Assembly: GCA_013214965.1 (NCBI GenBank)
Contig: JABSRU010000039.1
Span: forward strand, 1 to 38,409
Direction of reading: 5' to 3'
Length of the DNA stretch: 38,409 nt
From: Gammaproteobacteria bacterium
Lineage (GTDB): Bacteria; Pseudomonadota; Gammaproteobacteria; Enterobacterales; Psychrobiaceae
In this document: piece by piece, positions 1,567-21,566 of the stretch
Position numbering within the stretch: position 1 is the first letter of the stretch
Layout: every line of letters starts with the position of its first letter
Program-made: the position numbers and the translations under genes
The notes under the pieces: generated by a model
Seen by the model: only the letters and a program-made list of their open reading frames with translations
Databases searched by the model: none
What the model was told of the DNA's origin: nothing

Positions 1567-2829
1567 ATGGGCACGGTAAAATCAGTTCAACGAGGGTTAT
1601 TTTTGGGGTTTATGATCTCAATACTGACGATGACCTCAACCAGTCATGGCGCAACCAGTCAAGGCGAAATAAAGCACTACAAGATAATTCTTGATGCCGA
1701 TTTCACCACGACCAAAGCGGCTGGTATAGCGATAAAACAGGGTATTAATACCGCTTTAAGCGAGAAAAACCATCAAATTTCCGGTTATCAATTTACCGTT
1801 GAAACTAAAGATCATCGTGGCAATTCACGCCGTAGTAAACAACATCTCAAGCAATATTTGGCAGACAGCCAAGCACTGGTTGTGTTTGGTGGTTTACACT
1901 CGCCGCCACTATTGGCTAATAAGAAATTCATCAATCAGCAACAAATTCTAACCTTAGTTCCTTGGGCTGCTGCGGGTCCAATTACCCGTTCTGCCCAAGC
2001 TGAAAACTGGATTTTTAGATTATCGATTGACGATTCTAACGCCGGCCATTTCATCGCTCAACAAGCAATAGCACAAGGATTTAAGCGCCCTTATCTACTA
2101 TTAGAAGACACTGGCTGGGGTAAATCAAATGAAAACACCATGACTAAGTCATTGGCTAAATTGGGGATTTCCCCTGTTGGGATTGGCTGGTTTAATTGGG
2201 GCATTAAAGAAAATCAAGCCCGTATCATGATCCGTTCGATCATCAATGAAAAAGCCGATGTAATATTTTTTGTTGGTAATTCTCCCGAAGGTAAAGTGTT
2301 TGCTAATGCGCTCCTCTCTCTCGATCATCACCTTGCGATTCGAAGTCACTGGGGCATCACCGGGGGCGACTTTGAAAAAGTGATCACCGCGACAAAACGA
2401 GAAAATCTAGATCTCCAGTTTATCCAAACTAAATTTTCTTATATTTCCACCCCGGCGACCCCATTTTCTCAACAAGTATTTAAACAAGCACAACAAATTG
2501 ATCCCAGCATTATCACGGTGCAAGATATCAAGGCACCCGCCGGGTTTATTCACGCCTATGATTTAACAAAAATATTAATAGCGGCGATTGAACAAGCTGG
2601 CTTAACTGGTGATATAAAGGTCGATAAACTCGCTATTCACCGTGCATTAGAACAGCTAACTCAACCAGTAAAAGGATTAATAAAAGAGTATCGCCAACCG
2701 TTTTCAGGCAATCCTAACGATCAAAACAGCCATGAAGCATTATCAGAACAAGACTATGGGATGGCCTCTTATGGCGATGCTAATCAAATAATTCTGCACC
2801 CCAATGCCGCGGTTAATCAGGAAAAATAA
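1567..2829 (+). CDS. Periplasmic ligand-binding protein (LivJ-like, type I fold)
   Basis: A 420-aa protein with a signal peptide (hydrophobic residues about 10-27, likely cut near SHGA) and the two-lobed fold of branched-chain amino-acid/amide binding proteins (Peripla_BP_6). Recognisable stretches are AGIAIKQGINTALSE, VVFGGLHSPPLLANK and YLLLEDTGWGKSNE, with the C-terminal hinge region AGFIHAYDLTKILIAAIEQAG. The start is fixed by AGGGAGC 8 nt upstream. There is no permease or ATPase gene nearby. Instead a histidine kinase follows after 3 nt, so the likely job is signal perception: ligand-loaded protein contacts the kinase's periplasmic domain. The ligand cannot be told from sequence. Orphan transport use is the alternative, which the missing ABC genes make less likely. 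Confidence 0.85.
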   Translation: MGTVKSVQRGLFLGFMISILTMTSTSHGATSQGEIKHYKIILDADFTTTKAAGIAIKQGINTALSEKNHQISGYQFTVETKDHRGNSRRSKQHLKQYLADSQALVVFGGLHSPPLLANKKFINQQQILTLVPWAAAGPITRSAQAENWIFRLSIDDSNAGHFIAQQAIAQGFKRPYLLLEDTGWGKSNENTMTKSLAKLGISPVGIGWFNWGIKENQARIMIRSIINEKADVIFFVGNSPEGKVFANALLSLDHHLAIRSHWGITGGDFEKVITATKRENLDLQFIQTKFSYISTPATPFSQQVFKQAQQIDPSIITVQDIKAPAGFIHAYDLTKILIAAIEQAGLTGDIKVDKLAIHRALEQLTQPVKGLIKEYRQPFSGNPNDQNSHEALSEQDYGMASYGDANQIILHPNAAVNQEK

Positions 2830-2832
2830 TCG

Positions 2833-4629
2833 ATGAAAAGAACCACAATTTCCTTTGCGTTAGCACGTTTTGTTTTTGTCAGTTATTTAGCGCTTGCTGT
2901 CGTAACAACGGTCATTGTGGTTAATCAGGTCATCAATTCAATTAGTGAGCAGCAAGAACAACTACTCGAACGTGAAATGGCGACCATTGCCAGTAATTAT
3001 CAGCAATTTTTAGCTAACCGCTTAATCATTCTAACCGAACAAAGCAATTATCCCATTGTCGTTCAAAGCCTGATGCAACCCGAAAATAATCAAGGGAAGA
3101 TCCAAGACTTAATGTCTGATTTTCGTTTTTTGGGTCAGCGTTATTCGCAAAGTTTGCTGGATTTTGAGGGGAGTTATATTCATGCCACGAGTTCAGCAGT
3201 AACATTTCATCATCATAATGCCCCCTGGTTAAGCCCGCTATTGAACGAAAAAGCATCAAGTTATATTGGTATTAAAGAAGTTGACCAGCAGTTTTTCTGG
3301 GTATTGGCTGTCGCGGTTCTTTATCATGATGGCGTAGAGGGTGTGCTAACCGCAACCATCCCGATCGACAGAATCCACCAGCTTGAACCATCACAACAGG
3401 CAGGATTAAGCATTGAGCTGTTAGAGGGTCCACATGTTATTGCACGCTTTGGTCAGCAACGCCAAGGTTTAGTACGCACTAATCCTTGGCCGGAACTTGG
3501 CCTAAGCCTAAGATTTACCTTTGATGATAGGGCCATTAATGAAGGCATTAATAATTTAGTCTTGCAGTTAAGTTTATTGATTATTTTGTCTACTTTTGTT
3601 GCGACTTTATTCGCTTATTTTTTTGGTTATCGCCAACTGGTTAAGCCTATTCTAGAACTATCACAAGCAACCGACAATTTAGAATATGGCAAGGAAGCTC
3701 AACAATTACAGTCCGATGTAAAAATAACAGAACTGGCTGATTTACTAGATAAATTCAATCACATGACCCTAAAAGTATTAAAAAGAGAACGGGCGCTGAA
3801 GCTAAGCTATGAACAATTGGCCCACACCAATGATGAATTAAAACACAGTGAGTCACAGCGGGTTCAATCTGAAAAAATGGCCAGCATTGGGGTGTTAGCT
3901 GCAGGGGTTGCCCATGAGATAAATAATCCCATTGGTTTTGTCAAAAGCAATGTCGAAATACTCAAAAACTATAGCGAAGACTTACAACGTTATCATCAGC
4001 AAATCCAGCAAGATGTTATTACCGAGCAGCAACAGCCATCATTAGCAAAATTAATCGTGCAATACGACATCGAATACATCAGCCAAGATATCGGGCCATT
4101 AATTGATAGCACCATGTCAGGGATTGAACGGGTGGCCGAAATTGTGCAAAGTCTCAAAACCTTTGCCCGTCAAGATAGCCCGGACAAAGTCCTTTCCGAC
4201 ATCAATGAAGGGCTAAAGGCAACTATCAATATGGCTAATAATGAAATAAAATATCACTGTGATTTGACCATCGATTTAGCTCCCCTACCCTTAATTATGG
4301 TCTATCCGGGCAAACTAAATCAGGTCTTTATGAATCTTATTATCAACGCATCTCAAGCAATTACCGATCACGGTGACATTACTATTCGCTCATTTATCGA
4401 TGAGGATTATGCAGTGGTCGAGATAACGGATACCGGTTCAGGAATTGAGCCGGATAAATTTTCGCAAATATTCACCCCTTTTTATACCTCAAAACCCATC
4501 GGTCAAGGCACGGGATTAGGGCTATCAATCAGCCATGGTATTATGGAGCAACATGGCGGTAAAATTGAAGTGACCTCAACGGTTGGCCTAGGCAGTTGTT
4601 TTTCAATTTTTATTCCTTTATCGCCCTAA
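2833..4629 (+). CDS. Sensor histidine kinase partnered with the binding protein
   Basis: A 598-aa inner-membrane kinase. TM1 is at about 10-30, a periplasmic sensor region of about 200 aa follows, TM2 is at about 243-263, and then comes a HAMP-like linker and coiled coil. The phosphoacceptor is His361 in GVAHEINNP (NtrB-like class). The ATPase domain has an N box (NQVFMNLIINASQAI), G1 (DTGSGIEPD), F (FTPFYTSK) and G2 (GQGTGLGLSI), all intact. There is no receiver or HPt domain, unlike the hybrid kinases SypF and RscS of Vibrio fischeri, so transfer to the next regulator should be direct. It sits 3 nt after the binding-protein gene and is probably co-transcribed with it. Role in EPS control is inferred from position. 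Confidence 0.9.
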   Translation: MKRTTISFALARFVFVSYLALAVVTTVIVVNQVINSISEQQEQLLEREMATIASNYQQFLANRLIILTEQSNYPIVVQSLMQPENNQGKIQDLMSDFRFLGQRYSQSLLDFEGSYIHATSSAVTFHHHNAPWLSPLLNEKASSYIGIKEVDQQFFWVLAVAVLYHDGVEGVLTATIPIDRIHQLEPSQQAGLSIELLEGPHVIARFGQQRQGLVRTNPWPELGLSLRFTFDDRAINEGINNLVLQLSLLIILSTFVATLFAYFFGYRQLVKPILELSQATDNLEYGKEAQQLQSDVKITELADLLDKFNHMTLKVLKRERALKLSYEQLAHTNDELKHSESQRVQSEKMASIGVLAAGVAHEINNPIGFVKSNVEILKNYSEDLQRYHQQIQQDVITEQQQPSLAKLIVQYDIEYISQDIGPLIDSTMSGIERVAEIVQSLKTFARQDSPDKVLSDINEGLKATINMANNEIKYHCDLTIDLAPLPLIMVYPGKLNQVFMNLIINASQAITDHGDITIRSFIDEDYAVVEITDTGSGIEPDKFSQIFTPFYTSKPIGQGTGLGLSISHGIMEQHGGKIEVTSTVGLGSCFSIFIPLSP

Positions 4630-4649
4630 AACCGTCGAACGCTACTGAT

Positions 4650-4677
4650 TTGACAAACACTGTTTACCATTTATAAT
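4650..4677 (+). promoter_or_regulatory. Sigma-70 promoter for the sigma-54 response regulator
   Basis: TTGACA (4650-4655) and TATAAT (4672-4677) are both perfect consensus hexamers with a 16-bp spacer, in the 79-bp gap between kinase and regulator. This predicts strong constitutive supply of the regulator, independent of the upstream kinase transcript. It lies 32 bp before the ATG, and a full AGGAGG ribosome site follows at about 4700. Confidence 0.75.
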
Positions 4678-4708
4678 TAATTAGATAAGCTAACAAACAG
4701 GAGGTTTT

Positions 4709-6148
4709 ATGCTTGATTCGGTACTAGATACATCGCAACTACCAGTGTTGTTATTAGTGGATGATGACAAGGATGTACTCGCCGCCCTCGAACGCACTTT
4801 GCATGGCATTCAAGCGACAATTATTAGTTACTCCTGCCCAACTGAAGCCCTGAAATACTGCAAATTTAATCAGCCACAAATTATTATATCCGACCAAAAA
4901 ATGCCTGAGCTTGAAGGGTGTGAACTCCTGAGTAAAATACAAGTATTATGGCCAGATTCACAGCGTATTATCCTTTCTGCTCATCAAGATTTTCAAAGTG
5001 TTTCAAGTGGTTTTAATTCCGGCGCGGTCGAGCGCTATATCTGTAAACCATGGGATAATAAAGAATTAAGATTTATTGTTAGCAAAGCGCTACAAAACAA
5101 CTCCTCACATCATGTACCTCAGCGTCAGCCTTTAACCGATGAGGCCATTAATTTTCACTCGATGATCGCAGCACACCCATCGATGAAAACTTTATTTGAT
5201 AATATTTGTCAGGCGGCAACGTCCAATGCACCGATATTTATCACCGGTGAAACGGGCACCGGAAAAGAACTTGTAGCCAAAGCCTGTCATGAAGAAAATT
5301 TTCATCAAAGCCAGCCATTTTTAGCGGTAAATTGTGCCAATTTCACTGAAAACCTCATGGAGTCTCAATTATTTGGCCATATCAAAGGAGCCTTTACTGG
5401 CGCAGTGTCAGCCCAAGAAGGCGTTTTTGCTGCGGCAAAACAAGGCACATTATTTTTAGATGAAATAACCTCCTTGTCCAAACCATTACAAGCCAAATTA
5501 TTAAGGGTTGTACAGGAGCGCGAGTTCACGCCGTTGGGTAGCACCAAAAGCCAAAAATTTCATGCCAAGCTTATTTCAGCGTCGTCAAACTCTATTCGCA
5601 ATGCCGTTCTCAGTGGTGAATTTCGTGAAGATTTATTTTATAGACTCAATATTATTACCTTTTCGCTACCCGCACTGCGGGACCGTGGCGCAGACAGATT
5701 ATTAATCGCCAAGCATTATTTAAAAAAATATGCACGGATTGAAAATAAAAATTTCCGTGGTTTTTCTAAAGGATGCCTACAAATTATAAATCAATACAAT
5801 TGGCCAGGTAATGTCCGGCAATTAGAGAACATTGTGCACGGGATTATTATTCTAAATAACGGCGATCAAATAAATTCACAGATGATCATTAGTGCTTTGT
5901 CTACCACCATTTCCCCAATCGATAATCAAGACATTATCAACACCATTGGCGAAAGTATACGCCAAGAAAATACGGCCGCCACACACCAAGTTATCCCGTT
6001 ATGGCAAACCGAAAAACAAGCCATTGAAAACGCTATCTCTTACTGTCAGGGTAATGTCCCCCAAGCTGCCGCCCTACTAGAAGTCAGTCCCTCAACGATT
6101 TACCGCAAGAAACAAGCATGGGATGAATCGTCATTATCTAACGATTGA
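4709..6148 (+). CDS. sypG: Sigma-54-dependent response regulator (NtrC/SypG type)
   Basis: A 479-aa enhancer-binding protein in three parts. The receiver domain (about 14-130) has acidic VDDDKD, phospho-acceptor Asp62 (IISDQKMP) and Lys in CKPWDN. The AAA+ domain has Walker A GETGTGKE, the sigma-54 contact loop GAFTGA at residues 227-232, Walker B GTLFLDEI, and the WPGNVRQLEN motif. The C-terminal Fis-type helix-turn-helix is QAAALLEVSPSTIYRKK. It should be phosphorylated by the upstream kinase, bind enhancers and open sigma-54 promoters. Such a promoter lies about 105 bp after its stop codon, in front of the first EPS gene. By domain plan and neighbourhood it matches SypG of Vibrio fischeri; exact orthology is inferred. 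It has its own consensus promoter and an AGGAGG ribosome site. Confidence 0.9.
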   Translation: MLDSVLDTSQLPVLLLVDDDKDVLAALERTLHGIQATIISYSCPTEALKYCKFNQPQIIISDQKMPELEGCELLSKIQVLWPDSQRIILSAHQDFQSVSSGFNSGAVERYICKPWDNKELRFIVSKALQNNSSHHVPQRQPLTDEAINFHSMIAAHPSMKTLFDNICQAATSNAPIFITGETGTGKELVAKACHEENFHQSQPFLAVNCANFTENLMESQLFGHIKGAFTGAVSAQEGVFAAAKQGTLFLDEITSLSKPLQAKLLRVVQEREFTPLGSTKSQKFHAKLISASSNSIRNAVLSGEFREDLFYRLNIITFSLPALRDRGADRLLIAKHYLKKYARIENKNFRGFSKGCLQIINQYNWPGNVRQLENIVHGIIILNNGDQINSQMIISALSTTISPIDNQDIINTIGESIRQENTAATHQVIPLWQTEKQAIENAISYCQGNVPQAAALLEVSPSTIYRKKQAWDESSLSND

Positions 6149-6166
6149 CCGAAAGTTAGATTAAAT

Positions 6167-6179
6167 TTGCAATTTGCAA
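6167..6179 (+). promoter_or_regulatory. Predicted enhancer (UAS) 1 for the sigma-54 regulator
   Basis: TTGCAATTTGCAA is a 13-bp near-perfect palindrome (TTGCAA-T-TTGCAA) centred at 6173, 94 bp before the -12 base of the promoter at 6253. It matches the sites at 12514 and 18162 at 12 of 13 positions when optimally oriented. Position and repetition make it the likely binding site of the regulator at 4709. Confidence 0.6.
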
Positions 6180-6252
6180 CGCTGATTAAAAAAACCATCT
6201 CACTCGCGCATCATTATAGATATAAAAAGCTGATATTTAACAACTTTATTTG

Positions 6253-6268
6253 TGGCACCTTGTTTGCA
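6253..6268 (+). promoter_or_regulatory. Sigma-54 promoter 1 (-24/-12) for the sypH-L-like block
   Basis: TGGCAC-CTTGT-TTGCA is a perfect match to the -24/-12 consensus, with GG-N10-GC spacing (GG 6254-6255, GC 6266-6267). Predicted transcription start is near 6279, giving a leader of about 27 nt before the first glycosyltransferase. It needs an activator such as the regulator encoded just upstream. Confidence 0.85.
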
Positions 6269-6305
6269 GCCCTAGTACTAACCACATAATAACCCTGAGT
6301 GATTG

Positions 6306-7379
6306 ATGATGACTAAAAAGAGACCAGTTTGGCTGTTATTGGATAGTCGTAGTTTCGGCGGGATAGAAACCCATGTTTTCCAATTAGCGAGCAGCTTACA
6401 CAAACATCATATCGCCGTTGAGGTGATCTTCATGACCGACTATGGCACTCACCCTCTGATGCCGTTATTTCACCGCAACAACATAAAATTTAGGGTATTG
6501 CGCCATGGCTTATGTTCTTTGATCTACGCGCTAAAACAAGAGCAACCCATTATTGTCCACACCCATGGCTATAAAACAGGGATTTATGCACGAATAGCGC
6601 ACTTCTTTACCAAAAGCACCATCGTAAGTACTTTTCATGCTGGTGAAAAATCCAGCGGTAAATTGGCGGTTTATGATTTAGTTGATCGCATGAGTGCATG
6701 CCTCTCACATGCACTCATTACGGTTAGTGCCGCGATAAATTCGCGACTTGATCATCAGGCGACGATTGTCGACAATTTTGTCGCTATCGAACCGCAAACT
6801 TTCCCCGGCGAACAAATTGCCTTCGTCGGTCGCCTTAGTTACGAAAAGGGGCCAGACACGTTCCTTAAGCTCGCCACTTACTTTAGCAATCAGCAATTTC
6901 ATTTCTACGGCGAAGGTCCAATGCAACAAAACCTAATGGCAGCAGCTGGCGATAATATTGTGTTCCATGGTCACCAAGCATCGATGGATCAGCAATGGCA
7001 GAATATTGGGTTGTTGGTCATGCCCTCTCGGCACGAAGGTTTACCATTGGCAGCCATTGAGGCGATGGCCCGTGGTATTCCTGTATGTAGCTTCAATGTC
7101 GGCGCCCTCAATCGGCTCATTGATCAGCACTGTGGCTGGTTAGCACCACCAGGAAATGTTAATGCCTTACGCTATGGCATTTGCCAATGGTTAAGTGGAT
7201 CCCTTAAGCATAATTTATTGATATCACGCAATGCCAGAAAAAAAATCATTGTAAAATTTAGCGATACGGTGGCTATCCCAATCATCATTAATTGCTATAA
7301 CCAAGCCTTGGCCAATAACCATTGTGGTCACCAGAAATTACATTCTCACTTAAAGGGATTATCCCATGACACAGACTAA
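6306..7379 (+). CDS. GT4 family glycosyltransferase (SypH-like position)
   Basis: A cytoplasmic or membrane-associated sugar transferase of about 357 aa with GT-B fold. The N-terminal acceptor lobe carries FGGIETHVFQLA. The donor lobe carries VGRLSYEKGPDTFL, FYGEGP and the E-x7-E-type signature SRHEGLPLAAIEAMA. It probably adds one sugar to the undecaprenyl-linked EPS repeat; donor and linkage are unknown. The reading frame opens with TTG-ATG-ATG; I chose the first ATG (6 nt after GAG), but 6309 is equally possible. It is the first gene behind sigma-54 promoter 1 and its 3' end overlaps the next gene by 14 nt, so the two are translationally coupled. Confidence 0.85.
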   Translation: MMTKKRPVWLLLDSRSFGGIETHVFQLASSLHKHHIAVEVIFMTDYGTHPLMPLFHRNNIKFRVLRHGLCSLIYALKQEQPIIVHTHGYKTGIYARIAHFFTKSTIVSTFHAGEKSSGKLAVYDLVDRMSACLSHALITVSAAINSRLDHQATIVDNFVAIEPQTFPGEQIAFVGRLSYEKGPDTFLKLATYFSNQQFHFYGEGPMQQNLMAAAGDNIVFHGHQASMDQQWQNIGLLVMPSRHEGLPLAAIEAMARGIPVCSFNVGALNRLIDQHCGWLAPPGNVNALRYGICQWLSGSLKHNLLISRNARKKIIVKFSDTVAIPIIINCYNQALANNHCGHQKLHSHLKGLSHDTD

Positions 7380-8604
7380 TCAAGGTACCCCAATCTTGTT
7401 TGTTCATTATGGCGAGGATTGGATTCGAGGCAGCGAGCGTTGTTTGTTAGATTTACTCTCACACCTTGACCGCACACGCTTTTCGCCCATGGTATGGTGC
7501 AACAGTATGCAGCTAGCATCGCAAATTAAAAAACTCGGTATTACTGTGATACAACAGCCATTCCCACTACTATTAGGTTGGCAAGCACCCGCTTACGATA
7601 TTTTCGCTTTCTTCGCCCTAGTCAGTAAAGGCATCACTCTGATTCAACACCATCAAATTAAGCTTATCCACAGTAATAGTGGCGCGCCCTGTCAGTGGCT
7701 AAACTTAGTCGCTAGAAAGACTAGAGTGCCACTGATTGCGCACCTGCATTGCCGTTATCCACTGCGCGATAGAATAAGCCTCGGTTTGCATCATGTCTCG
7801 CATCTCATCGCCGTCAGTCACCCAGTAGCCCAACAATATATCGATGATGGTTTCGATCAAAACCGCCTCGGTGTTATTGCTAATGGCATTGATCCCCAGC
7901 GACTAAAGATCAACCAAAACATTAAGATAAAGCAATTTCTTAAGCTCGATAAAAACGATTTTATCTTAATGTCGGCTGGTTCACTCATTGCACGAAAAGG
8001 CATGGATATATTAATCAATGCCTTAGTTTTAGTGCGCCAACATCATATTCCGGCCAAATTAATCATTGTGGGGGAAGGTCCCTGCCATGCGCAACTCAAA
8101 CAACAAATAAATGCATTAGGTGTGGGGCAGCACGTATTTTTGCTGGGTGAGCGCTCAGATCTATCGAGCTTATTACAAAGTGGCATTGACCTATTTATCT
8201 CTGGCGCGACCGAGGAAGTTTTCGGTTTGGTGTTAGCGGAAGCGGGATTACATAACATTCCGGTGATTGCCCCCGATGTTGGCGGCATATCAGAAGTGAT
8301 AAAACATCATCACAGTGGGTTATTGGTACCACCTCAAGCACCACAGCAAATTGCTCAAGCTATCGAGTTACTGTATTTACGCCCCGATTTACGCCGCCAA
8401 TTTGGCCATGCTGCCAAAGCACGAATAGAAAAACTATTTTTAATTAAAAAACATGTTACAGCAGTCGAATCACTATATTTCAAAATGCTTAGCAAACCTA
8501 TGCATGCGCTAACCTGGCATAGTCATTGGTCAATGCTTGCGGTAGCTACCAGCATTATTCATTTTGCATTAAAGCGCTTAATCACCCATAAGGAATCAAT
8601 ATGA
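7366..8604 (+). CDS. GT4 family glycosyltransferase (SypI-like position)
   Basis: A 412-aa GT-B glycosyltransferase. The N-terminus has WIRGSERCLLDLL (acceptor lobe). The C-terminal lobe has AGSLIARKGMDILI, IVGEGP, and TEEVFGLVLAEAG, which supplies the E-x7-E nucleotide-sugar contact, followed by VIAPDVGGISEVI. The last 40 residues include a hydrophobic stretch that may anchor it to the membrane. It begins inside the previous gene and ends with ATGA shared with the next, the arrangement of a tightly coupled operon. Role: one sugar transfer in repeat-unit assembly; sugar unknown. Confidence 0.88.
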   Translation: MTQTNQGTPILFVHYGEDWIRGSERCLLDLLSHLDRTRFSPMVWCNSMQLASQIKKLGITVIQQPFPLLLGWQAPAYDIFAFFALVSKGITLIQHHQIKLIHSNSGAPCQWLNLVARKTRVPLIAHLHCRYPLRDRISLGLHHVSHLIAVSHPVAQQYIDDGFDQNRLGVIANGIDPQRLKINQNIKIKQFLKLDKNDFILMSAGSLIARKGMDILINALVLVRQHHIPAKLIIVGEGPCHAQLKQQINALGVGQHVFLLGERSDLSSLLQSGIDLFISGATEEVFGLVLAEAGLHNIPVIAPDVGGISEVIKHHHSGLLVPPQAPQQIAQAIELLYLRPDLRRQFGHAAKARIEKLFLIKKHVTAVESLYFKMLSKPMHALTWHSHWSMLAVATSIIHFALKRLITHKESI

Positions 8605-9701
8605 AATCATATGACCATATTATCGTGATCGATGCCATAGCCTTCGCTGGCGGCTCTAAAGTCGCCACTAACGATCTGTTAATGACTTTTATAGAGCCAA
8701 CGCAAAAAATAACGGTCATTACCCGTGATAGAAACAGTTGGGATCAACGTTTTCAATTCATGCGTTTGTTCGAGCCCTCATGGCTAACAGCTCAAGAGCA
8801 AGGTATGTGCTATTTTTTACGTCACCTGCTCCTCACATTACACCTTATCGTGGCACGATTGCGTTATGGCAAGATTAACCTAGCAATTGGGGCGTCTAGC
8901 CCTGGGGTTGATTTATCCATTTATTTAAGTCAGAAGATTTTAGGCTTTAGGATCCTCCAGTTAATTCATGGCCCAGTACCCAGCTCTGGTACGGTGGCAC
9001 GATGTTTAATGCGAGCAACCTATACATTTTATCTCCAAAGCAGTTTAGATTCGATTAAACAATGCCTTAAAAAAAGTAACAATCAACAACAAACAGATAA
9101 ACTGCTCAATAGTGGTAAATTTCATCTGCTTAATATCGGCCTTGGTGAAAGTTCGTGGCCATCGCAATGTCAATATCATACCCCGCAAATTTTATGGGCG
9201 GCATCGCTACTAAAATGGAAAGGACTGGATTTTTTTATCGATGCGATGTCTTCAATTCCCCTAGCTCATCGACCCGCCGCCGATATTTGCTATATTCGCC
9301 CTTACAATACCCGACAGCCTATATCGCTTGCACCGGTGTTACTGCCCAAATTATATTGGCATCAGCAACCCAAAGATTTAGATCGGATCCGTGCCAATTG
9401 TAATATCTTTATTTCGACCAGCAACAATGAACCGTTCGGCTTGTCAATTCTTGAGGCGCTGGCGGCAGGCCATTGCGTGATTATTCCACAGGACAACGCC
9501 TATTGGGATCAAACATTACACCATGGCGTTAACTGTATAAAGTACCGAGCAAACAACCTCAACGACCTCACTAAACAAGTACTTATACTCGGTCAAAATC
9601 TCAAAAAAATAAAACAAATAGGTCAAAATGGACAACAGGTTAGCCGTCATTATCACGCCAAAGATATATACAAAACGGTTCGAGATATTGTCCTAATGTA
9701 A
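8601..9701 (+). CDS. GT4-like glycosyltransferase (SypJ-like position)
   Basis: A 366-aa protein with the GT-B plan but a more divergent sequence than its neighbours. The N-terminal FAGGSKVATNDLL replaces the usual GGxE loop. The donor lobe has WAASLLKWKGLDFFI and an E-x7-E motif in NNEPFGLSILEALAAG. It overlaps the preceding gene by 4 nt (ATGA). It is the third consecutive glycosyltransferase of the block and is expected to act on the undecaprenyl-linked intermediate at the inner face of the membrane. Substrate not predictable. Confidence 0.82.
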   Translation: MKSYDHIIVIDAIAFAGGSKVATNDLLMTFIEPTQKITVITRDRNSWDQRFQFMRLFEPSWLTAQEQGMCYFLRHLLLTLHLIVARLRYGKINLAIGASSPGVDLSIYLSQKILGFRILQLIHGPVPSSGTVARCLMRATYTFYLQSSLDSIKQCLKKSNNQQQTDKLLNSGKFHLLNIGLGESSWPSQCQYHTPQILWAASLLKWKGLDFFIDAMSSIPLAHRPAADICYIRPYNTRQPISLAPVLLPKLYWHQQPKDLDRIRANCNIFISTSNNEPFGLSILEALAAGHCVIIPQDNAYWDQTLHHGVNCIKYRANNLNDLTKQVLILGQNLKKIKQIGQNGQQVSRHYHAKDIYKTVRDIVLM

Positions 9702-9729
9702 TCACTGTTACTCGTACAGGAGATCGCAA

Positions 9730-11151
9730 ATGTTCACTCAATTAATCAGCAAGTTTCCAGTGGCCCTAAAACAATCGATGGTCTACGGATTGAGTATTGC
9801 ACTGATGAAAAGTATCTCACTAATTATGCTTCCGATCACCGCATACTATTTGCAGCCAATGCAATTTGGTCAGCTTGAATTATTATCCAGTATTGCCATT
9901 GTCTGTAGTGTGTTGGTCGGACTGGGGTTAGAAAACACCCTATTTCGGTTTGCTGGAACTCAAGAAGATCCCGAGGAAAATAGCCAAGGGGCAGCAGTTG
10001 TTTTAACACTAGCACTAATCGTCGGAGGCCTAGCTATGTGCGCTGGCTGGCTGATTGCACCTAAAATAATCGCCAATATTTCAGTCGAACTGTCGGTATT
10101 ACAACTTAGATTAATGTTAATTGTTGTGTCGCTCGAAGGCGCTATCGCAATTCCCTTAGCTTGGTTCAGAATGCAACAACGGGTGTTGACATTTTTTTTA
10201 GCGACAATCCTTAGAACGATTGCGCAAGCCATTATGATCGTCGTCTTTTTACATTTGGGGTTTGGGGTTTCTGGTGTCCTCGTCGCCAGTTTAATTGCCG
10301 CCGTACTACAGGCTGCTATCTTGAGTGCAATGATGATTAATGAAGTTGGTATTGTCTTTAAGCTCAATCAATTTAAGCAATTTTTAAGTTACAGTTTACC
10401 GATTGTCGGTAGTGGTTTTATTGCTTTTTCATTGGCAGGTTTTGATCGGTGGCTCCTGGCCGCCCAACACTCGTTAACCGATGTTGCTATTTATGGTGTC
10501 GCCGCAAAATTTGCACTGGCCACCGCTTTGTTAGTGCAACCTTTTGGCATGTGGTGGCTGCCAAAACGATTTTCCCTATTAAAAGAACCCGCCGGGGTCA
10601 TTAAAGTAGCTCACGGCATCATGATTGGTATTATCGTCGTGATGACTGTCGCCGTGATGGTGTCATTTATCGCGCCATTTTTAATCCATTCTCTGTTAGC
10701 GCCAGCGTACCATCCGGCGATCCAATATGTGTTATGGCTGGTATTAGCGATGGCGTTCAAGGAAATCGCCGAGCTAGTCAATATTGGCTGTTTTTATGGT
10801 CAATCGACATACCAACAACTGGCGATCAACCTTATTTGCGCGGCGATCGGTCTAACGATTATGTGGTTGGGCATCGAAAAGTGGGGAATTTGGGCCGTTG
10901 TTATCGCCCTCAATATTGCTTATGTGTCTAAGGCGTTATTATTTTATATTGCCAGCCAGCACAACCTACCATTACCTTATCATCAAACAAAAATACTCGG
11001 TATCATCATATGTGCAACTGCACTCATTACTCTTAGCCAATATATCCCAATGAGCTTTATCGGTTGGTCAGTCTCAATGTTAGCCTTAAGCGGAGTGTTT
11101 GTTACCACGCTCAAACATGATCTGTTATCGCTCAATCTTCGATTGGGTTAA
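9730..11151 (+). CDS. sypK: Polysaccharide repeat-unit flippase (Wzx, SypK-like)
   Basis: A 473-aa polytopic inner-membrane protein with about 12-14 hydrophobic segments, of the MOP/PST family. The N-terminus (KQSMVYGLSIALMKSISLIMLPITAYYL) is typical of Wzx proteins, as is FGQLELLSSIAIV. It should move undecaprenyl-linked repeat units across the membrane for polymerisation by the next gene's product. AGGAG stands 8 nt before the ATG. The stop codon TAA (11149-11151) is embedded in a perfect inverted repeat that also holds the start codon of the following gene. Confidence 0.85.
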   Translation: MFTQLISKFPVALKQSMVYGLSIALMKSISLIMLPITAYYLQPMQFGQLELLSSIAIVCSVLVGLGLENTLFRFAGTQEDPEENSQGAAVVLTLALIVGGLAMCAGWLIAPKIIANISVELSVLQLRLMLIVVSLEGAIAIPLAWFRMQQRVLTFFLATILRTIAQAIMIVVFLHLGFGVSGVLVASLIAAVLQAAILSAMMINEVGIVFKLNQFKQFLSYSLPIVGSGFIAFSLAGFDRWLLAAQHSLTDVAIYGVAAKFALATALLVQPFGMWWLPKRFSLLKEPAGVIKVAHGIMIGIIVVMTVAVMVSFIAPFLIHSLLAPAYHPAIQYVLWLVLAMAFKEIAELVNIGCFYGQSTYQQLAINLICAAIGLTIMWLGIEKWGIWAVVIALNIAYVSKALLFYIASQHNLPLPYHQTKILGIIICATALITLSQYIPMSFIGWSVSMLALSGVFVTTLKHDLLSLNLRLG

Positions 11152-11183
11152 CTGATGGTTCACGATAGCTCGAACCATCAGTT
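11150..11183 (+). promoter_or_regulatory. 12-bp hairpin over the polymerase start codon
   Basis: AACTGATGGTTC (11150-11161) and GAACCATCAGTT (11172-11183) form a perfect 12-bp stem with a 10-nt loop. The stem contains two bases of the upstream stop codon and the whole ATG (11155-11157) of the next gene. There is no T-run, so it is not a typical terminator. The likely effect is to hide the start codon unless ribosomes arriving from the flippase gene melt the stem, giving translational coupling and a low protein level. Confidence 0.6.
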
Positions 11184-12531
11184 TGATTTATGCTGCGCCC
11201 TAATTTATTGTGTGCTATTAAGTGCAGTTTGGTGGTTAATTCCGCACCCAATTTGGGGCCCCGCGCTGGCTATGCTTCCTATCGTGGTCATGTTAGTGAT
11301 TGCCCGGCCCTTTGAAATGGTTTTGCTGTTTGTGGTGTTCTCGTTCTTTAGAATTCATGAAGTGATCCCTGTGCTCTATCCTTTAAAAATACCGTTAATG
11401 CTATCACTAGCCGCTATCGCTAGCTTAATATGGCATATCACGATAAGCCATAAAATCACATTATGGTGGAATCGAGAATTAACCCTACTCACTTACTTTT
11501 TCGTGCTGGTATTTATCGGAGTCGCGATGGCGAGCAATCGCTCACTTGCGCTGACCTATTTTAATGATATTTTCTGTAAAATTGCGTTAATGACCTACGC
11601 TATTACCTGGATCACCCGCACCGAGCGAGATTTTTCACTCGCCTCAACCTTACTAACATCTTCCGGTACATTAGTTGGTATCGTCGCGTTACTCAACAAA
11701 GCCAATCATGTTGGTCTGGTCGAAGGTACCCGAGTCACTATTGGGCGAACCATGGGATCGGTGCTGGGCGATCCAAACGATTTGGCCTTGGTATTGATGT
11801 TTCCGGCGGCATTTTCATTAAGCTTAATCACCACCAATAATATCGCTACATGGCAACGCTGGCTTGGTTATGTGAGCCTACCCATCCTCTTTTTTGCGGT
11901 ACTGGCGACACAGAGTCGTGGTGGCTTGCTAGGCATAATGGCGGTTTTTGGGGTATTTATTTACCGAAAAATCAACAATAAACTGGCATTTATAGCCTTA
12001 GTACTAATAGCCTCAATATTACTTTACACCGTGGCTGGTATCTCTGAACGTTCCTCAGGTGGCGCCGCAGAACAAGGGCTTGACGCCTCAGCTCAGGGCC
12101 GTTTATTTGCTTGGCAAGCTGCATGGAGAATGGCTTTACATAATCCGATCACCGGCGTGGGTATCGATAACTACTATGCCAATTATTTTTTTTATAGCCA
12201 ACATTGGGATGGATTAAATCACGCAGTCCATAGCACTTGGTTTGGGGTCTTAGCTGAAACGGGTATCGTTGGCTTGATAGTTTTTATCACCCTAATCATT
12301 GCGCTGATACGGATGGCCTATCAAAGTATTGTGGTGCTCCAAACATTGGATAAGGTTCCGCCAACGATTATTGCAACCGCCCAGGCCGTATTTTCTGGAA
12401 TGATTGGAACGGTGGTCGCGGGTACCTTTTTAACCCAAGGATTCACCTGGCCAATTTATATATTAGCAGCATTAATCTTAGCGGTATCACGCTGGACTAC
12501 CCTAGCCAAACAGTTGCATTTTGCAAATTAA
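11155..12531 (+). CDS. sypL: O-antigen ligase/polymerase family protein (Wzy, SypL-like)
   Basis: A 458-aa polytopic membrane protein (about 11 segments). It carries the Wzy_C/O-antigen-ligase signature: large periplasmic loop with TQSRGGLLGIMAVF, and later NPITGVGIDNYY plus HAVHSTWFGVLAETG, the conserved H-x-x-x-x-x-x-L-x-E-x-G pattern. It most likely polymerises repeat units delivered by the flippase 3 nt upstream; ligase activity cannot be excluded because both share the fold. There is no good Shine-Dalgarno sequence, and the start codon lies inside a 12-bp hairpin, so translation probably depends on the upstream gene. Confidence 0.85.
   Translation: MVHDSSNHQFDLCCALIYCVLLSAVWWLIPHPIWGPALAMLPIVVMLVIARPFEMVLLFVVFSFFRIHEVIPVLYPLKIPLMLSLAAIASLIWHITISHKITLWWNRELTLLTYFFVLVFIGVAMASNRSLALTYFNDIFCKIALMTYAITWITRTERDFSLASTLLTSSGTLVGIVALLNKANHVGLVEGTRVTIGRTMGSVLGDPNDLALVLMFPAAFSLSLITTNNIATWQRWLGYVSLPILFFAVLATQSRGGLLGIMAVFGVFIYRKINNKLAFIALVLIASILLYTVAGISERSSGGAAEQGLDASAQGRLFAWQAAWRMALHNPITGVGIDNYYANYFFYSQHWDGLNHAVHSTWFGVLAETGIVGLIVFITLIIALIRMAYQSIVVLQTLDKVPPTIIATAQAVFSGMIGTVVAGTFLTQGFTWPIYILAALILAVSRWTTLAKQLHFAN
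12514..12526 (+). promoter_or_regulatory. Predicted enhancer (UAS) 2
   Basis: TTGCATTTTGCAA, 12 of 13 identical to the site at 6167, lies in the last codons of the polymerase gene. It is centred at 12520, 92 bp before the -12 base of sigma-54 promoter 2. A weaker second inverted repeat, TTCGC-N7-GCGAA, is centred 20 bp further on (about two helical turns). Confidence 0.6.
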
Positions 12532-12597: not shown

Positions 12598-12613
12598 TGG
12601 CATCAATTCTGCT
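12598..12613 (+). promoter_or_regulatory. Sigma-54 promoter 2 (-24/-12) for the sypN-R-like block
   Basis: TGGCAT-CAATT-CTGCT has GG (12599-12600) and GC (12611-12612) exactly 10 bp apart, with two deviations from the consensus. It sits in the only sizeable gap inside the biosynthetic run (122 bp), 41 bp before the next ATG. An inverted repeat AATGATAT-N8-ATATCATT (12575-12598) ends at its -24 element and could bind a second regulator. Confidence 0.7.
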
Positions 12614-12653: not shown

Positions 12654-13796
12654 ATGAACCAATTTATCAATCGCACAAACAACAGAGATCTCATCGTCTT
12701 TGCTGAAGATTGGGGCGGGCTGCCCAGTAGCACTCAACAACTGATTAGCCACTTAGCCAATCACCGTAAAATCATTTGGGTCAATTCAATTGGCTTACGC
12801 CAACCGAGTTGGAGCATCAAAGATCTTAAGCGTTTATCAACTAAAGTTATTGGCTGGCTAACCACAACTAAGATCCAAACCAAAGAAAACAGTATGTTTG
12901 TGGTGGTTAATCCCAAAACACTACCTGCTCCCAAAGGGGGATTTAGCCGATTTATTGCCGCAACACTATTAGCTCATCAACTAAGAGCACAAATCAAACG
13001 TCACCAATTAACTCGTCCTATTTTATGGATTTCATTACCCACGGCGGTCGATATTATCGGTCGGCTAAACGAATCGGCAATCGTTTATTATTGCTGTGAT
13101 GACTTTAGTGCGCTCGCCGGCGTGGATCACGAAACAGTCAATCAACGGGAACAACAACTAGCCGAACAAGCCGATCTCATATTGACCTCAAGTAAGGTGT
13201 TACGGGCTAAATTTAAAGGCAAAGTGGTGGTCACCGTAGAGCATGGCGTTGATTATCAATTATTCTCAACCCCAGTTCAACGTGCCGCAGATCTACCAGT
13301 AAACAAACCCATCGCTGGCTATTATGGCAGTATTTCCAGTTGGCTTGATCTTGAATTATTACAACAAACCATCAACCAATTACCACAATGGAATTTTGTG
13401 TTCATTGGCGAAATTAGCATTGATGTTAGCGTGTTGCGCCAATACCCTAATGTCTATTTTCTAGGTCCTAAGCCGCATCAACTACTGCCGCAGTATTGTC
13501 AGCATTGGCAAGCGTCTTTATTACCATTTCGTGATAATCGCCAAATTAGAGCATGTAATCCGTTTAAATTACGCGAATATTTAGCCGCAGCAAGACCAAT
13601 AATTAGTACAGAATTCCCAGCATTAGAGCCTTATGAATCATTGATTAATGTCGTGCATAACGCCGACCAAATGGTCGCTGCATTACGTAAAATAAAACCA
13701 GAACAACCGCTTGATTATCGTAAACAACGCGCAGTTGTAAATCAAACGTGGCAAGCCCGTGCGGCGCAAGTTAACAACCTACTGGAGCAGCTATGA
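12654..13796 (+). CDS. Glycosyltransferase family 1/4-like (SypN-like position)
   Basis: A 380-aa GT-B glycosyltransferase of the TuaH/GumK-like type. The N-terminus is IVFAEDWGGLPSSTQQL; mid-protein there is IVYYCCDDFSALAG; the donor lobe has GYYGSISSWLDLELL and a sugar-nucleotide region NPFKLREYLAAARPIIST. The classical E-x7-E is replaced by this N-P-x-K-L-x-E-Y motif, as in that subgroup. It is the first gene after sigma-54 promoter 2 and overlaps the Wzz-like gene by 4 nt (ATGA). Predicted to transfer one residue during repeat-unit assembly; sugar unknown. Confidence 0.8.
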   Translation: MNQFINRTNNRDLIVFAEDWGGLPSSTQQLISHLANHRKIIWVNSIGLRQPSWSIKDLKRLSTKVIGWLTTTKIQTKENSMFVVVNPKTLPAPKGGFSRFIAATLLAHQLRAQIKRHQLTRPILWISLPTAVDIIGRLNESAIVYYCCDDFSALAGVDHETVNQREQQLAEQADLILTSSKVLRAKFKGKVVVTVEHGVDYQLFSTPVQRAADLPVNKPIAGYYGSISSWLDLELLQQTINQLPQWNFVFIGEISIDVSVLRQYPNVYFLGPKPHQLLPQYCQHWQASLLPFRDNRQIRACNPFKLREYLAAARPIISTEFPALEPYESLINVVHNADQMVAALRKIKPEQPLDYRKQRAVVNQTWQARAAQVNNLLEQL

Positions 13797-15217
13797 ATGA
13801 CTTATCCTATCAACTGCTCTATATTTTAATTGCTGCGTGGCGTCGTCGTTATTTGCTGATAACACCGATCATTATTTTGCCCTTAATCGGGGCAATTATC
13901 GGGTTCACGACCGACAAGCAATATAAATCACACACCAGTATGCTAATTCAAGAAACCGCTAAAATGAACCCTTTTCTTGAAGATTTCGCCGTTTCTTCCA
14001 TGCTCAAAGAGCGTCTAGATTCCTTACAAACGCTGCTCCACTCTCGTCATATTCTCGGTGCAGTGGCGCGTGAACAACAGCTCATTAATGACACGACTAA
14101 GGACGATGCCTATGAAAAAATCATTGCCCACTTATCAGAATCGCTGGTGATGAGCATGGCTGGTAAAGATCTGATTCGTATTGATTACACTGCGTCATCT
14201 TCTGTTGGTATGGCAGCGATGTTGGAAACCGTCAGTCGATATTTTATCGAGCAATTATTAGCGCCCGAACGTTCTAGTATGAAAGATTCAGCGGTATTTC
14301 TAGAAAGATACCTAAAACAACGCCACCTTGAACTTGAAGAGGCAGAACAAGCATTGGCAAATTTTAAAGATACTCATGCTCGAAATCTGCCACAATTGCA
14401 TAGCGCAAATATCAGTCGAATTGCTAAATTAAAACTCGATTTGGCACAAAAAAAAGCGCAACGTTCAGGGGTTAAGAAAAGCCTCGGCGGCTTACACATT
14501 CAATTGTCAAAAACTAATCCGATCATCGGTAAAATTGAAGAGAAAATCATCCAACTGCGTGGCAGATTAGCGTTATTAAAAGCCCGTTATACCTCGAAAC
14601 ACTCCAAGGTTCAAACCACTATCAGGGAAATTAGCAGCTTAGAACGTGAACGCCAATTGCTACTGGATCAAAAAACTCAGGCGCTCAATGCTGAACAACT
14701 GTGGGACTTAGTCAGCTCGCTATCGGTGACCACAGGCAATACGGCACAACCACTTTTGATCACTCAACTTGAAAAATTACAAGAAGCTCGCTCAACATTG
14801 CTATTTTTGAGCGAAGAAATTAATTCCTTAACCACCATGATTGCCAATTTTGAACAAACGGCCGCAAGTTTCGGCGCCGATGAACAACAAATGATTAAAC
14901 TTGAACGTAACTTAAAGATCAAACAACAGTTGTATGAAAAACTATTCCATCGCTTTGAAATGGCAAAAATGACCCGAGCTTTAGGTCATTTTGAGCAAAA
15001 CAAGCGGATCAAAATAATTGATCGTCCATATACACCGGCTACTCCAAACAATTACCCACTATTTGCTTACATCCTATCAGGCCTCCTCGCTGGCACATTA
15101 CTCGGCGGTGGTTTAGTCACTCTGTTTTCACTGACGGATAACACAATTTTTAGGCGCGATCAGCTCGAACTATTATCATCGGTTCCCGTGATTAGTCGTA
15201 TTCCCCCCCTTAAATAA
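13793..15217 (+). CDS. sypO: Wzz/GumC-type chain-length determinant (SypO-like)
   Basis: A 474-aa polysaccharide co-polymerase of the inner membrane. The N-terminal TM is at about 20-40 (LLITPIIILPLIGAIIGF), followed by the Wzz domain, and then a long periplasmic coiled coil at about 180-400 (for example LERYLKQRHLELEEAEQALA). The proline-rich motif IDRPYTPATPNNYPL leads into the C-terminal TM (about 425-447). There is no cytoplasmic kinase domain; the kinase-like partner is encoded separately at 21567. It should set chain length and link the polymerase to the outer-membrane exporter. Confidence 0.9.
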   Translation: MNDLSYQLLYILIAAWRRRYLLITPIIILPLIGAIIGFTTDKQYKSHTSMLIQETAKMNPFLEDFAVSSMLKERLDSLQTLLHSRHILGAVAREQQLINDTTKDDAYEKIIAHLSESLVMSMAGKDLIRIDYTASSSVGMAAMLETVSRYFIEQLLAPERSSMKDSAVFLERYLKQRHLELEEAEQALANFKDTHARNLPQLHSANISRIAKLKLDLAQKKAQRSGVKKSLGGLHIQLSKTNPIIGKIEEKIIQLRGRLALLKARYTSKHSKVQTTIREISSLERERQLLLDQKTQALNAEQLWDLVSSLSVTTGNTAQPLLITQLEKLQEARSTLLFLSEEINSLTTMIANFEQTAASFGADEQQMIKLERNLKIKQQLYEKLFHRFEMAKMTRALGHFEQNKRIKIIDRPYTPATPNNYPLFAYILSGLLAGTLLGGGLVTLFSLTDNTIFRRDQLELLSSVPVISRIPPLK

Positions 15218-15229
15218 AGGAACACTCAT

Positions 15230-16309
15230 ATGTCACTGCATCACACAACAGTTGTCGCACAAGTTGTCCAACATTTAAGACCTGGCGGCATTGAAACCAT
15301 GGTGCTATCGTTACTCAAGCACCAACCTTTTAAGACGATTATCTTTAGTCTAGAAGGAACAAAAGAAGAGGCAATTCAGCGTTGGCCAGTGCTAGAGCAA
15401 GTCAGAGATCAAATCGTTTTTTTAAACAAGCCAAGCGGGTTATCTTGGTTAACGGTTTATCGACTGTGTTTATTATTCAAAAAATATCACGTTTGTGCCC
15501 TACACAGTCACCACATCGGCCCCTTAGTTTATGGCGGTATTGCTGCCAAATTCATTGGTATAACCAAACATGTCCATACCGAACATGATGCTTGGCATTT
15601 AATCAATATCAAGCACCGGATCCTCCAGAAATTTTTGCTACTACTAGTTAAGCCCACTGTCGTTGCTGACGCATTAGCAGTAGCGAATAAAATCAAATTT
15701 TATCTAAATCACCATGACGTTACCCTCATTTACAATGGAATCGATACCACCAAATTTATCCCCGGTAACCGCAATAGTGCCCGCCACCACTTAAAACTTC
15801 CGACTGGCGTGGTACTGATCGGTAACGCTGCTCGCTTAGAGGTAGTAAAAGGACAAGATGTCTTGATCAATGCGATTAGCCAGTTCTCATCCTCCATCCA
15901 TCTTGCGATTGCTGGCGATGGTAGTTGTGCTGATTTACTCAAAGCACAGGCGGTGAAATTAAACATTGAACATCAGATACATTTTCTTGGTCAACTGGAC
16001 GACATGACCAATTTTTATCAATCTCTCGATATTTTTTGTTTACCGTCACGACAAGAGGGACTGCCCTTATCACCAATGGAGGCACAAGCTTGTGGCATTC
16101 CAACGTTAGTGACTAATGTGGGTGGCAGTGCCGAGGCACTTTGCCAAACCACCGGTTTGTTGATCGAGCAGGATAATGTTGAGCAATTAGTGAATGCGAT
16201 CGAAACGATGATATCGCGCAGCACAACGGTTACTCCACGCCAATTTATCGCACAACATCGCAATATTCAAGGCATGGCTAACGCTTATGCCAAGCTAATT
16301 TCCCCGTAA
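15230..16309 (+). CDS. GT4 family glycosyltransferase (SypP-like position)
   Basis: A 359-aa GT-B enzyme. Acceptor lobe: HLRPGGIETMVLSLL. Linker: IYNGIDTTKF. Donor lobe: IGNAARLEVVKGQDVLI, IAGDGS, and the E-x7-E signature SRQEGLPLSPMEAQA followed by LVTNVGGSAEAL. The start has AAGGAAC 8 nt upstream. It lies 12 nt after the Wzz-like gene within the second transcription block. Acts on a lipid-linked EPS intermediate; donor sugar not predictable. Confidence 0.88.
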   Translation: MSLHHTTVVAQVVQHLRPGGIETMVLSLLKHQPFKTIIFSLEGTKEEAIQRWPVLEQVRDQIVFLNKPSGLSWLTVYRLCLLFKKYHVCALHSHHIGPLVYGGIAAKFIGITKHVHTEHDAWHLINIKHRILQKFLLLLVKPTVVADALAVANKIKFYLNHHDVTLIYNGIDTTKFIPGNRNSARHHLKLPTGVVLIGNAARLEVVKGQDVLINAISQFSSSIHLAIAGDGSCADLLKAQAVKLNIEHQIHFLGQLDDMTNFYQSLDIFCLPSRQEGLPLSPMEAQACGIPTLVTNVGGSAEALCQTTGLLIEQDNVEQLVNAIETMISRSTTVTPRQFIAQHRNIQGMANAYAKLISP

Positions 16310-16326
16310 ATTAAGGAGAAATAATC

Positions 16327-17487: not shown

Positions 17488-17510
17488 CACTAACAAAAGG
17501 GAACATTATT

Positions 17511-18161: not shown

Positions 18162-18174
18162 TTGCAAATTGAAA
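18162..18174 (-). promoter_or_regulatory. Predicted enhancer (UAS) 3
   Basis: On the minus strand the 13 bases read TTTCAATTTGCAA, 12 of 13 identical to the site at 6167. The centre (18168) is 102 bp before the -12 base of sigma-54 promoter 3, about one helical turn further than in the other two promoters and so on the same DNA face. An overlapping TTGCA-T-TGCAA lies at 18157-18167. Confidence 0.5.
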
Positions 18175-18255: not shown

Positions 18256-18271
18256 TGGCTCAATATCTGCA
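18256..18271 (+). promoter_or_regulatory. Sigma-54 promoter 3 (-24/-12) for the sypA-D-like block
   Basis: TGGCTC-AATAT-CTGCA keeps GG (18257-18258) and GC (18269-18270) 10 bp apart, with two deviations from the consensus. Predicted start of transcription is near 18282, 28 nt before the STAS gene. It matches promoter 2 in having C at the first position of the -12 element. Confidence 0.7.
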
Positions 18272-19448: not shown

Positions 19449-19460
19449 GGAGCATTAGTC

Positions 19461-21554: not shown

Positions 21555-21566
21555 AGGAGCATTGTG

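Follow-up and report, generated by a model that had tools for sequence, protein, structure and literature searches.

Analysis of 38,409 nt from a marine Gammaproteobacteria bacterium (contig JABSRU010000039.1), the whole of which is referred to as the window, indicates a regulatory module that starts at position 1567 on the plus strand, where a periplasmic binding protein, a membrane histidine kinase and a sigma-54 activator stand ahead of an exopolysaccharide (EPS) locus of the syp type. We consider it probable that control of this syp-type locus has passed to a circuit resembling LuxP-LuxQ-LuxO, for which the locus contains no relay protein. It is very likely that the receptor-kinase pair is the input of the sigma-54 switch for the locus. 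The pair is real and conserved, and the link from receptor to kinase is well supported by the sequence comparisons described below. The promoter architecture points from the activator to the EPS genes, and this link is likewise well supported at the sequence level; the transfer from kinase to activator is the weakest step of the chain. Genomes and loci used for comparison are designated by G and L numbers, respectively.

The receptor gene (1567..2829) encodes a predicted secreted type I periplasmic binding protein of the LivJ fold. Its product matches Peripla_BP_6 in Pfam (8.8e-23; 81.9 bits versus a cut-off of 31.7), and its AlphaFold model, with a predicted local distance difference test (pLDDT) score of 92, has a LivJ-type fold (Foldseek E 4e-19). 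The LivJ-like periplasmic protein described in an earlier note on this DNA, which was made from the sequence alone, is thereby confirmed, and conservation together with the kinase points to its role as the receptor of the circuit. Proteins that bind 3-hydroxybenzoate, leucine and 4-hydroxybenzoate are among the best Foldseek matches of known structure, with benzoate-type binders at the top, followed by leucine binders. In LivJ, the acidic Glu226 holds the amino group of the ligand. No such acidic residue was found at the corresponding position in the weak alignment with 4n0q, where Trp262 stands instead; this position is invariant in 44 receptor rows. An amino acid ligand is disfavoured only by this one aligned residue of a weak alignment. 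As to an aromatic acid ligand, the benzoate-type Foldseek hits stand beside an influence of para-aminobenzoic acid on Vibrio fischeri syp biofilms reported in PMC8546588, but no link was found and such a ligand is not claimed.

The kinase gene (2833..4629) follows after 3 nt, as the earlier note had stated, and lies in the same frame (receptor stop TAA, tcg, kinase ATG). Its product is a membrane histidine kinase with a dCache-like periplasmic sensor and no receiver domain. HATPase_c (5e-24) and HisKA (3e-8) were matched in Pfam, dCache_1 was matched weakly and below its cut-off (1.4e-5), hydrophobic segments lie near residues 5-31 and 242-266, and His361 is present. The model of the sensor (pLDDT 84, predicted template modelling score 0.64) resembles the dCache-type sensors KinD, DctB, CqsR and LuxQ in Foldseek searches.

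Conservation of the pair was assessed in several samples. The genus set comprises nine genomes, the sampled family consisting of this one genus, and Shewanella, across whose genomes the earlier note had suggested looking for this gene order, is not supported as the source. A profile built from eight genus binding proteins yielded 391 relatives in named genomes, of which the best 80 were kept. An even sample of the order comprises 394 genomes, 16 further genomes reached via the receptor loci were searched for the activator, and permeases were sought in 16 genomes with the pair. One genome was reached twice (G010 and G191), so that two samples are not independent there. Most of the records that carry titles such as Planctomycetota or Nitrospirales are metagenome bins and are possibly misassigned. 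In 77 of these best 80 receptor loci, the next gene on the same strand matches the kinase-sensor profile, the exceptions being L050, L051 and L083, the last having no receptor open reading frame (ORF) above our threshold. The gap between the two genes in 75 pairs (seven from the window and its genus, 68 others) ranges from -56 to +74 nt with a single outlier of 301; this set left out L037, L038 and L047 (whose contigs are those of genus mates), L034 (a copy of L033), L124 and overlapping fetches. Within the order, the sensor half was detected at E<=1e-20 in 11 of the 394 genomes, and the receptor adjoins it in all 11. A receptor at E<=1e-60 but no sensor at E<=1e-20 was detected in another six genomes, and one receptor relative of G006 (L018) is not accompanied by a kinase. 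These two counts, 77 of 80 and 11 of 11, bear out the co-conservation of receptor and kinase, the loss of which had been named beforehand as grounds for abandoning the proposal. Receptor and sensor distances are correlated (Spearman 0.76, versus at most 0.38 in 500 permutations). Co-evolution of the two beyond common descent was rejected, as only a partial correlation of 0.31 is left once the kinase core is taken into account.

The activator gene (4709..6148) encodes a receiver, an AAA+ domain and a Fis-type helix-turn-helix (HTH) and belongs, by Pfam, NCBIfam and trees, to the superfamily of LuxO, SypG and H-NOX-linked activators, within which it has its own clade. Response_reg, Sigma54_activat (5e-61) and HTH_8 were matched in Pfam, the receiver Asp62 is present, the Walker-type motif is intact, and GAFTGA at residue 227 agrees with the NtrC-type regulator read earlier. 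The perfect sigma-54 promoter TGGCACCTTGTTTGCA (6253..6268) starts 105 nt past the last base of this gene, just as had been noted, and precedes the sypH-like gene. No other perfect TGGCAC-N5-TTGCW exists in the window, where 100 dinucleotide shuffles give 0.08 per window, and the promoter is also present in G004 (L017) and, with one mismatch, in G005 (L015). The enhancer TTGCAATTTGCAA (6167..6179), 86 nt upstream of this promoter, is a perfect match to the upstream activating sequence of LuxO, TTGCAWWWTGCAA. Where the earlier note had one EPS promoter, three pairs of enhancer and sigma-54 site are indicated. A second perfect LuxO-type enhancer, TTGCATTTTGCAA (12514..12526), lies within the 3' end of wzy and 84 nt upstream of the sigma-54-like promoter TGGCATCAATTCTGCT (12598..12613; two mismatches) before the sypN-like gene. 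The third is an enhancer-like site with one mismatch (18162..18174), 94 nt upstream of the sigma-54-like promoter TGGCTCAATATCTGCA (18256..18271; two mismatches) before the sypA-like gene, with similar sites in L017 (95 nt) and L141 (94 nt). In both the window and G004, a word of the TTGCAATTTGCAA type is found 86-95 nt upstream of the sigma-54 sites before the sypH- and sypA-like genes; in G005, it precedes sypH at 86 nt, and the sypA site is poor (three mismatches at 106 nt; L016). According to PMC10162802, the published enhancers are TTGCAWWWTGCAA for LuxO and TTCTCANNNTGMDWN for SypG, which overlap each other in V. fischeri.

It is their position and recurrence that speak for the enhancers. 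We set the weights and thresholds for sigma-54 sites in the promoter scans ourselves, and the enhancer word was derived from the window, L015, L016 and L017, four stretches that are also part of the 15 module stretches in the counts. The 15 stem from 13 genomes and include G003, where a search for this activator found none. Of the 15 other syp stretches, two (L130, L131) have no SypG-type activator, and L116 was left out of the H-NOX-type set due to its short contig. Allowing one mismatch and a spacing of 55-115 nt, the derived word together with a sigma-54 site was detected in 12 of the 15 module stretches (21 occurrences over 304 kb) and in all 6 H-NOX-type stretches (7 over 118 kb), compared to 3 of the 15 other syp stretches (3 over 300 kb) and 5 of the 45 other pair loci (6 over 773 kb). 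Forty permuted words gave a mean of 0.025 and a maximum of 1 in six loci, four of which had been used to derive the word, compared to 9 with the real word. The published TTGCAWWWTGCAA without mismatch and with a sigma-54 site was found in 9 of the 15 module stretches and 5 of the 6 H-NOX-type stretches, and in 3 each of the 15 other syp stretches and the 45 other pair loci. For the 11 module stretches outside the word derivation, the numbers are 6 at no mismatch and 10 at one. Since the HTH helix is similar among these activators, the word fits the superfamily and alone cannot tell which member binds.

The activator stands apart from both the LuxO and the SypG-type activators. Its best NCBIfam match is LuxO, at 384 bits versus a cut-off of 800, and it falls outside the LuxO clade in the tree. 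The 15 module activators form one clade (support 100/99 in the first tree and 100/98 in the second, from which four long-branch rows were left out), which is sister to the H-NOX-type activators; the joint clade of 23 rows (100/100) is apart from the SypG-type and LuxO rows. SypG-type activators score 276-324 bits versus at least 581 for the own clade, where SypG-type is a label given by the place beside SypC in Vibrio and others, with V. fischeri SypG itself outside the comparison. A SypG-type identity is ruled out by the trees, and the equivalence to SypG implied in the earlier note is not supported. Activators at least 60% identical occur in six of the 394 genomes, and all six carry the pair and a SypC homologue (pair-activator association: Fisher 9e-11, uncorrected for kinship). 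SypC is present in 70 of the 394 genomes, and its region was inspected in 22 of these. There, a SypG-type activator stands beside SypC in none of the six genomes with the module activator, the zero of G004 being less sure as its locus is split over contigs, versus 13 of the 16 without it (Fisher 0.001); neither activator type was seen in G069, G025 and G003. Seven more of the 394 genomes have an activator relative at 47-49% identity, adjoined by a related kinase in all seven, by an HD-GYP-type response regulator in five and by an H-NOX-kind protein in five, for which HNOB (PF07700) was confirmed by Pfam in two loci and the other three were assigned by resemblance. No H-NOX gene was found among the 20 window proteins scanned with Pfam. 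Elsewhere, in L118 (6318-16741) and L119 (5807-17838), an H-NOX protein, a kinase and a sigma-54 activator lie directly beside apparent other polysaccharide genes, and in L115 (2605-15594), where no H-NOX was seen, a GAF-domain kinase and a sigma-54 activator do so. All three loci have the same enhancer word and a sigma-54 site, and nitric-oxide or other control of an EPS locus is possible there.

The pair was found in neighbourhoods of several kinds. G004 and G005 carry EPS genes about 59-86% identical and an activator 67-78% identical to those of the window, with the pair divergent from and the activator convergent to the sypH-like gene. In four other genus genomes (G002, G006, G001, G007), the pair occurs without adjacent syp genes; in the last three, its neighbours are a flippase and a glycosyltransferase together with an activator of another kind, identified by Pfam for G006 and by resemblance for the others, the activator of G007 being truncated where the contig ends. 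Of the 80 best receptor loci, which lie outside the genus, 15 have three or more EPS-type neighbours, a threshold set by us that includes one core gene; 13 of these loci are from Colwellia, with two of them identical. Recurrence of the pair beside polysaccharide genes in several lineages is a supported observation. Nine of the 16 further pair genomes contain an activator ortholog, a single copy each at the threshold used. With contigs matched by their lengths, pair, EPS genes and activator share one contig in five of the nine (G009, G014, G015, G018, G011), with pair and activator flanking the EPS genes at opposite ends; in three (G016, G010, G019), pair and activator are neighbours with no EPS gene in the fetched stretch, and in G012 the pair is on one contig and the activator with the EPS genes on another. 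In the pair tree, built from the 39 of the 75 pairs with the strongest sensor match, L020 and the pairs from G006, G001 and G007 form a group with that of the window (100/100). In the first activator tree, the window activator groups with those of G004 and G005 (100/100). A second receptor-kinase copy in G004 (L019, 11317-13741), closer to the pair of the window than the EPS-linked one of G004, contains stops and frameshifts due to decay or assembly error and is located near an HD-GYP-type regulator.

In the second activator tree, pairs adjoin activators of three separate clades, including the SypG/LuxO clade (42_54_T18, its near copy L086 and two Pseudoalteromonas) and a third clade (G006, G001, Colwellia 12G3, Oleiphilus and others). 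The receptor in L079 (9950-21200) and L086 is accompanied by a longer kinase (902 aa) and a SypG/LuxO-clade activator, followed in L079 by sypH-like genes, which we read as another, separate event that brought the receptor pair together with genes of the syp type. Across the 39 pairs, the receptor is 51-67% identical to that of the window and the kinase sensor 27-56%. A speculative and rather doubtful extension is that the protein could be a LuxP-like orphan receptor through which many bacteria of marine and sediment habitats, from several phyla, sense one conserved extracellular signal, the receptor-kinase cassette being plugged into whichever output governs the sessile state, be it the three activator clades, HD-GYP-type regulators or longer kinases. 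The naming of an orphan receptor family with 391 relatives in one scan poses a testable ligand question, and three candidate promoters are available to read out the signal of this family.

In the syp nomenclature, the EPS genes follow the order H-I-J-K-L, N-O-P-Q-R and A-B-C-D. Unit 1 (6303..12531) comprises three glycosyltransferases, a Wzx flippase and a Wzy polymerase (sypH-L order), and unit 2 (12654..18149) a glycosyltransferase, a Wzz-like protein, two further glycosyltransferases and an initiating sugar transferase (sypN-R order), both according to Pfam. Unit 3 (18310..22280), based on domain scans, consists of a STAS protein (sypA), an OmpA protein (sypB), an SLBB exporter (sypC) and a tyrosine-kinase-like protein (sypD). 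Content and order are thus those of a syp-type locus with M absent, and relatives are found in L126 and L144; SypE-, SypF- or SypG-like regulators were not found in this locus of the window. At its end lies a response regulator with a degenerate HD-GYP domain (22420..23697), identified by domain scans and translation, which is a probable second output. HD-GYP phosphodiesterases have a catalytic consensus of HD and HHE/GYP residues. In the translation of this gene, these catalytic residues were not found, LYEAGK and EHISEQ(VNG) standing in their place. A relative of this regulator adjoins the activator in G005, G010, G011, G012, G014, G015, G016, G018, G252 and L020.

On this basis, the following mechanism is proposed. 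A periplasmic small molecule would bind the LivJ-fold protein, and the liganded (or empty) receptor would dock on the dCache-like periplasmic domain of the kinase and set its kinase/phosphatase balance. The receiver-less kinase would then pass phosphate straight to Asp62 of the activator, and it probably also phosphorylates the degenerate HD-GYP response regulator. The phosphorylated activator would bind the TTGCAATTTGCAA-type enhancers about 85-95 nt upstream of the three sigma-54 promoters and thereby switch on the whole syp-ordered locus. We infer the docking, phosphotransfer, regulation, sign of the response and ligand; the genes, pairing, promoters, enhancers, phylogeny and co-occurrence are read from sequence. 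The locus would represent a regulatory replacement in which the EPS genes were apparently kept, the activator came from a relative of the H-NOX network, and the receptor pair was exchanged between sister species; the HD-GYP regulator, like the activator, is related to those located next to H-NOX nitric-oxide sensors.

Several observations weigh against this circuit. The gap between kinase and activator contains TTGACA-16-TATAAT (4650..4677, plus strand), the sole perfect copy in the window (0.05 per window in shuffles), which is a probable own sigma-70 promoter of the activator. Because of it, the activator is probably also transcribed alone, and a single operon from receptor to EPS genes is weakened. 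The circuit of three genes only that the earlier note envisaged is accordingly not upheld, given this promoter and the HD-GYP-type response regulator that is often part of the set. Linkage is also incomplete. The pair of G002 is on a different contig from the activator and the syp EPS genes, two Psychromonas genomes have pair and activator on a different contig from the EPS genes, and in the incomplete genome G003, which has syp genes, neither pair nor activator was found. At E<=1e-110, 7 of the 16 further genomes reached via the receptor loci lack this activator, and the pair therefore has other outputs too. In sister species, the trees give the pair a different history from that of the activator-EPS block, which fits a replacement of the receptor-kinase pair as a unit between close relatives. 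Promoters 2 and 3 each deviate by two mismatches from the -24/-12 consensus. Taken by itself, the enhancer word shows no enrichment in the window (6 matches with up to two mismatches versus 4.58 expected), and at this stringency the contrast narrows to 13 of 15 module versus 10 of 15 other syp stretches.

Part of these observations would also be explained if the main output of the pair were the degenerate HD-GYP regulator, acting through the cyclic di-GMP network or protein contact like the reported HnoD, with the EPS placement mostly positional and the activator phosphorylated by another kinase. The activator's own promoter, the unlinked pairs of G002 and Psychromonas, and a match to this regulator in 24 of the 80 best receptor loci (13 above 100 bits, the weaker ones perhaps matching the receiver part only) speak for such an output. 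However, no other kinase is present among the Pfam-scanned genes of the locus, all 6 sampled genomes with the activator also have the pair, and the two are neighbours in three contig-limited genomes. This alternative is considered unlikely, though it is the likeliest of the rivals. A repressor is less probable still. The activator clade is sister to the H-NOX-linked activators, and HnoC is described in the accessible part of PMC8738867 as a repressor relieved by phosphorylation, a likeness by clade only that also counts against the proposed activation; the unphosphorylated protein would then hold the EPS promoters down until the receptor signal relieves them. The intact GAFTGA, Walker-type motif and receiver Asp, as well as -24/-12 promoters with enhancers at activating distance, make this improbable.

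The binding protein could also be an ordinary nutrient receptor for a distant ATP-binding cassette (ABC) permease whose gene merely sits before the kinase, in line with its LivJ fold and with nearest solved relatives that are transport receptors. LivH/M-type permeases (PF02653, BPD_transp_2) at E<=1e-10 are missing from 4 of the 16 pair-bearing genomes searched for them (G009, G014, G015, G018). In the 12 that have them, none is close: one is on the contig of the receptor only in G005, about 78 kb away, and the contigs of G012 were unmatched (at least 80 kb if shared). ABC ATPases were not found within about 3.5 kb in any of the 75 pairs by a pattern search of low sensitivity, which matched in only 4 of the 75 loci overall. 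The earlier remark that an ABC permease is absent from the locus is borne out by both searches. Together with near-zero gaps and kinase pairing in records of several phyla, this leaves the nutrient receptor as a very remote alternative to the sensory circuit favoured here.

The surroundings of the module contain further genes. A large subtilase with a PA domain (23747-26704, minus strand) is located directly after the HD-GYP-type regulator. Past the EPS locus, positions 27527-38083 encode an acetyl-CoA synthetase-like protein, an acyl-CoA dehydrogenase, a carboxyltransferase, a biotin carboxylase and a CoA-transferase, resembling a leucine/isovalerate breakdown cluster. Ahead of the receptor, a small zinc-ribbon (TFIIB type) ORF at 459-1015 overlaps an ORF in another frame and is perhaps a frameshifted gene, followed by no long ORFs until the receptor.

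Compared to the syp locus of V. fischeri and the scv locus of V. parahaemolyticus, the window shares the EPS gene order and a sigma-54 activator heading the H unit. Unlike SypG and ScvE, its activator belongs to another clade, and the receptor-kinase pair and the degenerate HD-GYP regulator replace SypE/SypF. In its accessible part, PMC8941931 describes control of the syp-like scv locus by ScvE and lists scv loci in 28 genera, including two Shewanella strains; no binding protein was noticed in that description of the locus. In V. fischeri, the nitric oxide/HnoX-controlled kinase HahK feeds SypG according to the available text of PMC12369376, and nitric-oxide signalling and syp control therefore already meet there. 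For S. oneidensis, the text available of PMC6335343 has the kinases HnoK and HnoS (signal unknown) acting on HnoC, HnoD (degenerate HD-GYP) and HnoB. With this H-NOX/HnoK/HnoC/HnoD network, the module shares a sister activator clade, an HD-GYP-type regulator beside the activator, a related kinase core and the same enhancer word, a likeness by clade with S. oneidensis HnoC and HnoD outside the comparison. The window differs in its input, a periplasmic protein with a membrane kinase, and in its output, the syp EPS genes. In GltB-GtrS-GltR and CuaD, a two-component system likewise requires a solute-binding protein or is linked to one, but in sugar uptake control, and neither a sigma-54 activator nor an EPS output is mentioned in the available parts of the sources. 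The earlier note had known of no description of such a three-component circuit for syp-like loci. Binding protein and kinase inputs as such are already known from LuxPQ, GltB-GtrS-GltR and CuaD; for syp-like loci, the circuit was not found described in the accessible parts of the open-licence PubMed Central literature, which contained related systems only and does not show absence in print.

The LuxP-LuxQ-LuxU-LuxO system differs in several parts. The window kinase has no receiver, unlike LuxQ, no LuxU-type gene was noted in the locus, and the activator lies outside the LuxO clade and would target EPS genes instead of the Qrr RNAs. LuxP is of the ribose-binding type, whereas the window receptor is a Peripla_BP_6 protein. 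On the other hand, the kinase sensor matches the LuxQ-LuxP complex 2hj9 in Foldseek (rank 21), and both systems combine a periplasmic type I binding protein, a dCache-type membrane kinase, a LuxO-superfamily sigma-54 activator and the enhancer word TTGCAWWWTGCAA, as far as covered by the accessible text of PMC10162802. A syp-type biofilm locus would gain a defined outside receptor, where the inputs of its best-studied relative are mostly unknown, little being known of the signals for RscS and SypF according to the available part of PMC12369376.

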